This document shows positions 52,084-55,689 of a stretch of 64,000 nt of DNA, piece after piece; within the stretch, counting starts at the first letter, position 1, and every line of letters starts with the position of its first letter. Origin of the DNA: Acidimicrobiales bacterium. GTDB taxonomy: Bacteria > Actinomycetota > Acidimicrobiia > Acidimicrobiales > CADCSY01. Where the stretch lies: positions 128,037 to 192,036 of the forward strand of contig JAUJNB010000001.1 in the NCBI GenBank assembly GCA_030446545.1. The letters run 5' to 3'. The notes under the pieces are model-generated. The model had not been told where the DNA came from. It searched no databases and saw nothing but the letters and a program-made list of their open reading frames with translations. The translations under genes were made by a program, and so were the position numbers.

Positions 52084-53070
52084 ATGCGCGCTGTCGTCCG
52101 GGCCACCGGCTTGGTGAAGCACTGGGGCGCCACCACCGCCCTGGCCGGCGCCACCTTCGAGGTGGGCTCCGGCGTCACGGGGTTGTTGGGCGCCAACGGG
52201 GCCGGCAAGACCACCCTGCTCGGCCTGGTCCTCGGGCTTCATCCGCCCGATGCGGGCAGCATCGAGGTGCTCGGCCTCGACCCCACCGCCGCCGGTCCCC
52301 AGGTCCGGGAGCGCATCGGCTACGTCCCCGAGCACGAGGCCCTGGCCCCCGACGTGCGGGCCCACGACCTGGTCCGCCACCTGGCCGAGGTGCACGGCCT
52401 GCCCTCCCGGGAAGCGACGGCCCGGGCCAGTGACGCCCTGTGGCTGGTGGGCCTGGGCGAGGAGCGTCTCCGCCCGGTGGGCACCATGTCCACCGGGCAG
52501 CGCCAGCGGGTGAAGCTGGCCGTGGCCCTGGCCCACGACCCCGCCCTGCTCCTGTTGGACGAGCCCACCAACGGCCTCGATCCCATGCAGCGGGAGGACA
52601 TGCTCGACCTCATCCGACGCATCGGCTCCGAGCTCGGGATCGACGTGGTGCTGTCGTCGCACCTGCTCGAGGAGGTGGAGCGCACCTGCGACGCCACCGT
52701 CATCCTGGCCGAGGGACGAGTGGTGGCCAGCGGCACCTTGGAGGTTCTGCGCTCCGGGGGCTCGGGCCTGGTGGTCGACGTCGACGGTCGGGCCGAGCTC
52801 CTCGCCGGCCGCCTGCGGGCCGGGGGCCTCGACGTCCACGTCGACGGGCTGCGACTGGTCGTCGACGGTCCGGCCGACGTCGGGGCCGACGCCGTGCGGG
52901 ACGCAGCCGCCGCCCACCGGGTGGGACTGCGCCGGGTGCAGGCCCGCACCGCCACCCTGGAGGACGTCTTCCTGTCCGCCGACCAAGGTCCGCCGACTCC
53001 CGTTCTTGCGTCGCAGACCGGCAACAGGTGCCGCCTGCAGACGCAAGAACGGGTGAGGGGGTGGGCCGGC
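52084..53070 (+). CDS. ABC-2 transporter ATPase, open into the next gene
   Basis: An ATPase of about 310 residues (ATG 52084): Walker [14 protein letters not shown], signature [10 protein letters not shown], Walker [13 protein letters not shown] and switch His in [11 protein letters not shown], then a C-terminal domain ending [14 protein letters not shown]. No stop follows; the frame reads through the palindrome at 52999-53053 (as [20 protein letters not shown]) and joins the permease at GTG 53071. Either the two are fused, or a stop was lost. First gene of a four-gene ATPase-permease-ATPase-permease cluster, divergent from ilvD. Confidence 0.85.
52999..53053. repeat. Palindromic element with inner hairpin (element 2), in frame
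   Basis: Perfect 14-nt arms CCCGTTCTTGCGTC (52999-53012) and GACGCAAGAACGGG (53040-53053) around 27 nt that hold GCAG/CTGC and CGGCA/TGCCG stems. It lies between the ATPase domain and the permease start, 18 nt before GTG 53071, and is translatable without a stop in the ATPase frame. Confidence 0.75.
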
Positions 53071-53933
53071 GTGAGTGACGCCCGCATCCTCGACCGGGGC
53101 TACCGCCGCTACGACGGACCCCGCCTCGGGGTACGGGGCGCCGTGCGCAGCCTGGCCTGGCACAGCGCCCTGCGGGCCTTGGGCCTGCGCCGCACGTTCT
53201 GGGCCAAGCTCCTGCCGCTGGCTTCGGTGGGCATCGCCTACGTGCCGGCACTGGTGTTCGTGGGCGTGGCCGCCCTGTTGCCCGCCGCCCTCACCGAAGG
53301 GGGCGGCCTGCTGCCCGACTACGCCGACTACTACGGCTTCATCAGCGCCGCCATCGTGCTGTTCGTGGCGCTCGTGGGCCCCGAGGTGCTCTGCCCCGAC
53401 CGTCGTCACCGGATGCTGGGGCTCTACCTGGCTTCCCCCTCACCCGCGACAGCTACCTGGTGGCCAAGGTCCTGGCCGTGGTGCCGGTGTTGGCGCTGGT
53501 CACGCTGGGACCACCGCTGCTGCTGCTCGTCGGCTTGACCTTCGCCGAGGCCGGCCCGGCCGACTTCGGGGAGTTCATCGGGGTGCTGGCCCGCATCGTC
53601 GCCGGTGGCCTGGTCGTCTCCGCCGCCTACACCGCCGTCTCGCTGGCCGCGGCCAGCCTCACCGAGCGCCGGGCGGTGGCCTCGGCCGGCGTCATCCTCG
53701 TGCTGCTCGTGTCGGGGGTGGCCACGTCGGCCCTGGTGGGCACCGGGTTCGACGAACGGCTCCTGCTCCTCAACCTGGCGGTGGTCCCCTTCGAGCTGGT
53801 GCAGCGCATCTACGGCCGGGCCGGTCAGATCGACGTGTCCACCGTGGAGCTGGTGGTGGCCAACCTGGCCTGGACCGTGGGGGCGGCGTCGCTGCTGCGG
53901 TCGCGCTACCACCGCCTGCGGATCACCCGGTGA
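53071..53933 (+). CDS. ABC-2 transporter permease (one frameshift)
   Basis: A ~287-residue permease from GTG 53071 (SDARILDRGYRRYDGPRLG, the typical opening of this family) with about six helices. The frame changes at a CCCCC run near 53436; restoring one C continues LTRDSYLVAKVLAVVPVLALV to TGA 53933. It is bounded by palindromic elements on both sides. Confidence 0.82.
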
Positions 53934-53941
53934 GGGCCCGA

Positions 53942-54015
53942 AGCGAAACTACCTGGGCGTTTCCAGGGCGGTTGACCTGCGCGTTCGTCACTCCAATGGC
54001 CCAGGTAGTTTCGCT
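53942..54015. repeat. Palindromic element with inner hairpin (element 3)
   Basis: Perfect 17-nt arms AGCGAAACTACCTGGGC (53942-53958) and GCCCAGGTAGTTTCGCT (53999-54015) around a 40-nt loop with an inner TGAC/GTCA stem. It lies between the permease stop and the next ATPase start, and the frame of that ATPase is open through it. Confidence 0.75.
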
Positions 54016-54036
54016 CCGGGTCCTGAGGCGGTCCCG

Positions 54037-54963
54037 GTGATCGAGGTCAGCCACATCTCCAAGTGGTTCGGTGACGTGGTGGCCGTGTCCGACGTCAGCT
54101 TCGCGGTCGGGCCCGGGGTCACGGCCCTGCTCGGCCCCAACGGTGCCGGCAAGTCCACCGTGCTCCGGCTGCTCTGCGGCCTCACCCGACCGTCGCAGGG
54201 CACGGTCCGGGTCTTCGGTGCCGATCCCCGGCACGACCCGGCGCGGTTCCGGCGCCTGGGCCTGGTCCCCCAGCAAGAGGCCCTGTTCGAGGGCATCCGG
54301 GCCCGGGACTTCGTCACCCTGGCGGCCGAGCTCCACGGCCTGGAGGGGGCCGGGGCCGCCGCCGCCCGGGCCCTGCGCGAGGTCGATCTCGACCCCGACG
54401 ACAGCCGGTCGCTCGCCACCTACTCCAAGGGCATGCGCCAGCGGGTGAAGGTGGCCCAGGCCCTGGTGCACGACCCCGAGCTGCTCGTGCTGGATGAGCC
54501 CCTCGACGGCCTGGACCCCCGCCAGCGCCTCCATCTCATCGCCCTGTTCCGGCGCCTGGGCAAGGAGGGTCGCGGCGTGTTGGTGTCCAGCCACGTGCTC
54601 GACGAGGTGGAGCGCTTCGGTTCCCGGGTGCTGGTCATGGCCCAGGGACGCCTGGCCGCCGAGGGCGACTTCCACGCCATCCGGGAGCTCATGGACAACC
54701 GCCCCCACCGCTTGCGGGTGCGCACCGACCGGCCCCATGCGCTCGGGTCGGCCTTGCTGGCGTCGGCCACCGTGGTGGGCGTGTGGGTGGCCGCCCCCGA
54801 TGAAGTGGTGGTCGACACCCTCGACGTGGCCGGCTTCCGGCTGGCGGTGGCCCCGGCGGCGTGCGCGGCCGGAGCCCGACTGCTGGAGCTGGTGCCCCTC
54901 GACGACGACCTCGAGAGCGTCTTTCGCTACCTGGTGGGCGCTGGATCCCGAAACGGCCGATGA
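54037..54963 (+). CDS. ABC-2 transporter ATPase
   Basis: A 308-residue ATPase from GTG 54037: Walker A LLGPNGAGKSTVL, RLGLVPQQEALFEGIRARDFV, signature YSKGMRQRVK, Walker B LLVLDEPLDGLD and switch His in SSHVLDEVERF, with a C-terminal domain ending LESVFRYLVGAG. The upstream frame is open back to 53605 through element 3, but GTG 54037 before IEVSHISKWFG is the family start. Confidence 0.88.
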   Translation: MIEVSHISKWFGDVVAVSDVSFAVGPGVTALLGPNGAGKSTVLRLLCGLTRPSQGTVRVFGADPRHDPARFRRLGLVPQQEALFEGIRARDFVTLAAELHGLEGAGAAAARALREVDLDPDDSRSLATYSKGMRQRVKVAQALVHDPELLVLDEPLDGLDPRQRLHLIALFRRLGKEGRGVLVSSHVLDEVERFGSRVLVMAQGRLAAEGDFHAIRELMDNRPHRLRVRTDRPHALGSALLASATVVGVWVAAPDEVVVDTLDVAGFRLAVAPAACAAGARLLELVPLDDDLESVFRYLVGAGSRNGR

Positions 54964-54984: not shown

Positions 54985-55689
54985 GTGACCACCCTGTACC
55001 GCACCTTTCTCGCTACGCAGGTCACCAAGGGGCGGCTGGCCGGCCTGGGTGCCCTCGGGGCGCTGGCCGTGCTGCTGGGCGTGGCCGTGGGGGCCGGCGA
55101 CCGCACCGATCCGGTCACCGGGGGCATCGGCCTGGTCAGCTCCTACGGCCTGGCCCTGTTCGTGCCGGTGACCACCCTGGTGTTCGCCTCGGCGGTGCTG
55201 GGCGAGCCCAACGAGGACGGGACACTGGTCTACCTGTGGCTGCGGCCCGTGGCCCGCTGGCGCCTGGTGGCGGTGGCCGTGGCCGCCGCCCTCACCGTCG
55301 CCCTGCCCTTGGTGGTGCTGCCCATGACCCTGGCCGCGGCGGCCACCGGCGCCGGCGCCGGCCTGGTGGTGGCCACCCTGGTGGCGACCAGTTTGGCCAC
55401 GCTGGCCTACGCCGGCGTCTTCACCTGGTTGGGCCTGCGGGCCCGGCGGGCCCTGCTGTGGGGGCTGGCCTACATCCTGGTGTGGGAAGGCTTCGTCGCC
55501 CGGGCCGGCGGGACGGCCTCGCTCCTGGCCATCAGGGCCCACGCCCGCTCGCTGCTGGCCCGCCTGGCCGACGGGCCCCCCGACCTGGTGGAGGTCTCGC
55601 TGGCCACCTCGATTGCGGTGCCCCTCGCCGCTGCCACCGTGGCCCTCGCCCTCACCGTCCGGCGCTTGTCACACCAAGACGTTCAGTGA
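54985..55689 (+). CDS. ABC-2 transporter permease
   Basis: A 234-residue permease with six helices, beginning TTLYRTFLATQVTKGRL (GTG 54985) and carrying SYGLALFVPVTTLVFASAVLGEPNEDGTLVYLWLRPVARW, the usual ABC-2 intracellular loop. It follows its ATPase by 21 nt and closes the cluster. Confidence 0.85.
   Translation: MTTLYRTFLATQVTKGRLAGLGALGALAVLLGVAVGAGDRTDPVTGGIGLVSSYGLALFVPVTTLVFASAVLGEPNEDGTLVYLWLRPVARWRLVAVAVAAALTVALPLVVLPMTLAAAATGAGAGLVVATLVATSLATLAYAGVFTWLGLRARRALLWGLAYILVWEGFVARAGGTASLLAIRAHARSLLARLADGPPDLVEVSLATSIAVPLAAATVALALTVRRLSHQDVQ

Follow-up and report, generated by a model that had tools for sequence, protein, structure and literature searches.

REPs of the GTAG and CGTC super-families are short multicopy palindromes found near the 3' ends of genes (Di Nocera et al. 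2013, PMC3733652). They occupy convergent and unidirectional sites, often less than 20 bp from gene ends, and some lie in-frame within ORFs; CGTC families have no dedicated transposase, and RPE-4 and RPE-6 have been classed as CGTC repeats (PMC3733652, which makes no mention of Actinobacteria). The RPEs of Rickettsia (Ogata et al. 2000/2002), as outlined in PMC10969869, are about 150 bp in length, encode a conserved peptide and are situated in ORFs in nearly half of cases. Acidimicrobium ferrooxidans is covered in the RepRanger paper, whose default setting takes palindromes of ≤32 nt (PMC12306157). Our literature search found no description of repeats of the kind reported below in Acidimicrobiia and, as far as searched, the 51-nt palindrome characterised here represents a repeat family that has not been described before.

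The palindrome lies at an ABC transporter ATPase-permease junction in a 64,000-nt stretch of DNA (the window) from a metagenome-assembled genome, G000, of 2.57 Mb in 44 contigs and 71% completeness (Table 1). The original prediction of a perfect 14-nt inverted repeat with inner stems was borne out, with arms at 52999-53012 and 53040-53053. The 51-nt core consists of CGTTCTT, a 16-bp inner stem, the loop and AAGAACG. The complete hairpin, inner stems included, has a folding energy of -51.2 kcal/mol (z = -7.3), a value that none of 200 shuffled sequences equalled. The palindrome arm occurs exactly twice within the window. No match above the gathering score was obtained in Rfam, where only below-threshold chance matches were returned. 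The 3' end of the hairpin is 17 nt upstream of the permease GTG, with a purine-rich, Shine-Dalgarno-like stretch in between, and the GTCCGCCGAC direct repeat on the other side belongs to an extra, frame-changing flank that is absent from relatives.

Table 1. Coordinates of features in and around the ABC transporter operon (window positions).
Feature	Position	Strand	Remarks
ABC transporter ATPase (PF00005)	52084-53070	+	Includes the palindrome; frame open as far as the permease start
10-nt direct repeat GTCCGCCGAC, 14-nt spacing	52974-52997	.	Directly upstream of the element
Palindrome of the original prediction	52999-53053	.	Core plus 2 paired flanking bases per side
Core of the dispersed palindromic element	53001-53051	.	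23-bp stem, 5-nt loop, ends CGTTCTT/AAGAACG
ABC permease, GTG start (287 aa in relatives)	53071-53933	+	Split by a frame break near 53437
Permease pieces produced by the frame break	53071-53538 and 53460-53933	+	
Second, unrelated dispersed palindrome	53933-54024	.	Follows the permease stop and precedes the next ATPase
Second ABC ATPase (PF00005)	54037-54963	+	
Second ABC permease (PF12730)	54985-55689	+	

The second palindrome of the operon has 26-nt arms that are 92% complementary, with the ends TGAGGGCCCG and CGGGTCCTGA, and is present in about 6-8 copies in the genome. The sequence CCCGGTGA stands at both of its ends, like a target duplication, and the sister genome G001 has a GTGA overlap at the position where the window carries this palindrome.

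The palindrome at the first junction is a dispersed repeat rather than a feature of the ABC operon. Searches with the 73-bp region or with a covariance model located approximately 25 related places in G000. An alignment of 21 copies drawn from several genomes has 86% of the cells in its stem paired, against 34-42% with the partner shifted, and the stem covariation score of 0.253 lies above those of all 500 shuffles (0.100 when shuffled). Both the palindrome and the repeat family exceed chance. A scan of contigs from 84,980 species found the form with 12-nt arms limited to Acidimicrobiia/Actinomycetota MAGs; the named carrier genomes are all Acidimicrobiia or unspecified Actinomycetota MAGs. 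Within the order, the pattern CGTTCTT-N34..39-AAGAACG is present in 34 of 298 genomes, with up to 28 copies per genome, and the reversed pattern, used as a control, gave counts near zero; some of the single matches in this survey are non-palindromic and are probably due to chance. When the total length was allowed to vary from 30 to 60 nt, nearly all of the matches listed were still 51 nt. Hairpins of 51 nt with these ends are found across several lineages of the order, and the interior of the stem is specific to each genome, nothing beyond the length and the 7-nt ends being common to all. Beyond the order, a 396-genome sample of the phylum yielded hairpins of this shape in a few genomes, many single matches being attributable to chance. 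No plasmid-borne copies of the element were found.

The genomic context of 70 copies was surveyed in nine genomes, with genes called by a simple codon-usage script. Convergent gene pairs flank 26 copies, tandem pairs 31 and divergent pairs 4, while 7 copies were called within ORFs and 2 are at contig edges; one of the divergent calls and one of the tandem calls are actually copies inside ORFs (loci L160 and L149). Against a baseline of 16% convergent and 15% divergent gene pairs (G001 and the window), convergent contexts are in excess (26/61, p about 5e-7) and divergent contexts are depleted. Most copies lie just beyond stop codons, at a median distance of 15 nt from gene 3' ends, with a minority inside genes and in frame. 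Such in-frame copies occur in HypF, between conserved blocks; in CcmF, whose G001 ortholog lacks it; in an ImuB-like protein; at the C-termini of YceD and of an Fe-S protein; and twice in the ABC ATPase. In two sister genomes (G011 and G008; loci L323 and L331) the element encodes the C-terminus of an ImuA-like protein. This ImuA-like copy is common to two genomes of one genus and seems to be inherited. In genome G203 a 51-nt copy with a stop-free frame has a MoaD-like segment on one side and, downstream, a membrane-protein segment (L340, 1075-2337), possibly a second case of two ORFs joined via the element. The ImuA, ImuB and MoaD names come from reading of the sequence, without a family search.

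The intragenic copies use all three phases. Of the 186 reading frames running through 31 family copies, 143 are stop-free owing to the high GC content of the copies. An uninterrupted frame across the element is thus to be expected and is not by itself evidence of selection. The absence of a stop from the ATPase frame of the palindrome, as originally predicted, is real as far as the GTG at 53071, but is not beyond what chance provides.

Comparison with relatives argues for insertion. In the approximately 0.93 Mb of G001 taken for comparison, nine places could be aligned to both flanks of a copy from G000 or G002, and the palindrome is lacking from every one of them. The cleanest of these empty sites corresponds to the G002 copy at the ABC junction, an insert that amounts essentially to the 51-nt unit; a clean target-site duplication was not seen in the nine alignments. 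The codons for EDVFL, the last conserved in the ATPase, are separated from the permease start by 20 nt in G001 and by 29 nt in G003, both without the palindrome, and by 68 nt in G002, which has it. All three spacings are 2 mod 3, and in each genome the start codon of the permease shares bases with the ATPase TGA, as GTGA or ATGA. The core, at 17 codons, is frame-neutral: the G002 copy is read as 17 extra ATPase codons and the stop/start overlap is kept. In the window the corresponding spacing to GTG 53071 is 96 nt, which is 0 mod 3, and therefore no ATPase stop is encountered. This change of frame derives from about 25 further bases, among them a tandem duplication of 14 nt and a flank rich in G. 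The suggestion that an in-frame palindromic element like those of Rickettsia had been inserted is thus supported by the dispersed family, the empty sites and the in-frame copies in proteins, and it withstood examination of the junction in G001 and G003, where the palindrome is lacking and the stop precedes or overlaps the permease start.

The window copy is closest to copies from G000 (0.88) and the G002 junction copy to those of G002 (0.90). That each is nearest to the copies of its own genome suggests two independent insertions or within-genome homogenisation. The occupation of this junction in G000 and G002, with an empty site in G001, calls for two insertions or a loss, and this counts against the explanation we prefer.

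Whether the ATPase and permease are truly fused is a separate question. The single continuous frame proposed for both genes does not hold, as the shared frame ends at 53538, inside the permease. Relative to the 287-aa permeases of G001, G002 and G003, a run of C near 53437 is one base short in the window, and from there the remainder of the permease continues in a different frame (53460-53933). Alignment of G001 proteins with G000 DNA revealed 16 frame breaks in 65 kb of coding DNA (about 1 per 4 kb), compared with none in 23 kb when G002 was used, and most of the G000 breaks are single missing bases beside G/C runs, a pattern that we take as the mark of an uncorrected long-read assembly. Since the assembly is rich in such 1-nt gaps, the missing ATPase stop may be an artefact, the true locus consisting of the element plus a normal overlap as in G002. 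This reading falls somewhat short of an even chance. One such gap lies in the adjacent permease, the junction contains a G run, and G002 combines the palindrome with an intact overlap; on the other hand, the extra junction sequence, with its 14-nt duplication and G-rich flank, looks real and could itself shift the frame. Less probable, and in our judgement unlikely, is that the insertion created a true fusion with the ATPase first, or a fused frame in which the permease also starts at its GTG. The two domains do share a stop-free frame in the window, and in three relatives of the same genus the genes are closely adjacent, with the stop at or overlapping the start. But the permease frame breaks 366 nt downstream, G000 carries its burden of frame breaks where G002 has none, and gain or loss of a single base anywhere in the junction would restore a stop in one of the other two frames (GTGA or GTGAGTGA). 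An ATPase-permease fusion is therefore possible but unproven, and this error-prone assembly cannot decide it, whereas the in-frame insertion of the palindrome is supported.

The position of the copies could also be accounted for if the hairpins were transcription-termination or mRNA 3'-end-stabilising elements under selection, repeated through selection and gene conversion, with the ABC copy a misplaced or attenuating terminator. The closeness to gene 3' ends, the convergent excess and divergent depletion, the strong RNA fold and the covariation of the stem are all consistent with this idea, which we nevertheless regard as possible rather than probable. The bases after the 3' arm are G-rich, and the absence of any T run there in the flanks listed led us to reject an intrinsic terminator, which would have a U-tract. 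The copies are also patchy between sister species, with empty sites, and some are inside ORFs, and an identical preference for gene ends has been reported for mobile REPs (PMC3733652). A hairpin dedicated to translational coupling at the start of the permease, the other role originally proposed, is very improbable. The short distance from hairpin to GTG, with its Shine-Dalgarno-like stretch, and the GAGGAG and GTG that directly follow the hairpin in G002 would fit such a role, but the element is a genome-wide repeat and relatives couple the two genes by a 4-nt overlap (GTGA or ATGA) with no hairpin at all.

The explanation that we consider likely is that a REP-like, dispersed 51-nt hairpin element has multiplied within Acidimicrobiia genomes, was inserted at the ATPase/permease junction and is read there as extra C-terminal residues of the ATPase. 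The element would copy itself as DNA, by means of a putative mobilising enzyme. Most insertions would be lost; the survivors would be those just past stop codons, where the mRNA 3' end may carry a hairpin without harm or even to advantage, and those in loose stretches of protein that could tolerate 17 stop-free codons. At the ABC junction the insertion would have occurred next to the ancestral stop/start overlap, adding a tail to the ATPase with probably no dedicated role in the operon; as the overlap is kept in G002, translational coupling should continue there.

No mobilising enzyme was found. The Y1 transposase family PF01797 is absent from G000 (71% complete), G001, G002, G148 and other carriers tested, G216 being the only tested carrier to have it, and a RAYT/IS200 origin was rejected on this search. 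A Pfam scan of 100 neighbour proteins detected no recurrent mobiliser; a DUF559/MTES_1575 nuclease was considered for this role and dismissed, being carried by only 2 of the 100. At one G000 locus (L144, 3001-4083; contig C22:33322-34404) two 51-nt copies flank an AbiEi_4/DUF559 (MTES_1575) nuclease-like gene, an arrangement that resembles a REP pair around a RAYT gene.

The element resembles REPs in being a short palindrome in many copies, intergenic and placed near gene 3' ends, with occasional in-frame use. It differs from them in having no conserved unpaired GTAG or CGTC tag, the CGTTCTT/AAGAACG ends being paired in every genome; a CGTC that occurs internally in the G000/G002 subfamily is itself paired and is absent from other genomes. 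It is also longer, with a fixed length and fixed 7-nt paired ends and a stem interior that is free to vary between species, and the Y1 transposase that accompanies REPs with RAYT is missing from G000, G002 and most tested carriers. Like RPEs, as these are described in the literature cited above, it is found in frame in unrelated protein genes (HypF, CcmF, the ATPase, YceD and the ImuB-like protein) and lengthens the protein. Those descriptions also set it apart, as it is only 51 nt long, uses all three frames, lies in ORFs in only about 10-15% of cases and belongs to another phylum; a single preferred frame with a conserved peptide was not observed. With MITEs it shares its shortness, inverted repeats, dispersal and non-coding nature, but no parent transposon or clean target-site duplication was found for it, and its interior is not conserved. 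In attC-like sites the end motifs have the opposite arrangement to those of the 51-nt element, and an attC reading was set aside. The element thus behaves like REPs and RPEs, but with no conserved tag, preferred frame or peptide, or RAYT found, we have not filed it as a member of either. It is conceivable, if rather doubtful, that it represents a new class of mobile hairpin, a 51-nt unit with fixed 7-nt ends and a replaceable complementary stem, inserted repeatedly in-frame and recognised by a putative enzyme that reads its ends and length.

These results show that palindromes have been inserted in frame, in the manner of RPEs, in Acidimicrobiia, a group distant from the Rickettsiales. The element is an unusually clean palindromic repeat, constant in length and ends with a fast-turning stem, and its spread between sister species can be traced site by site. 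Should the element prove mobile, this would point to a hairpin-mobilising enzyme not described so far.
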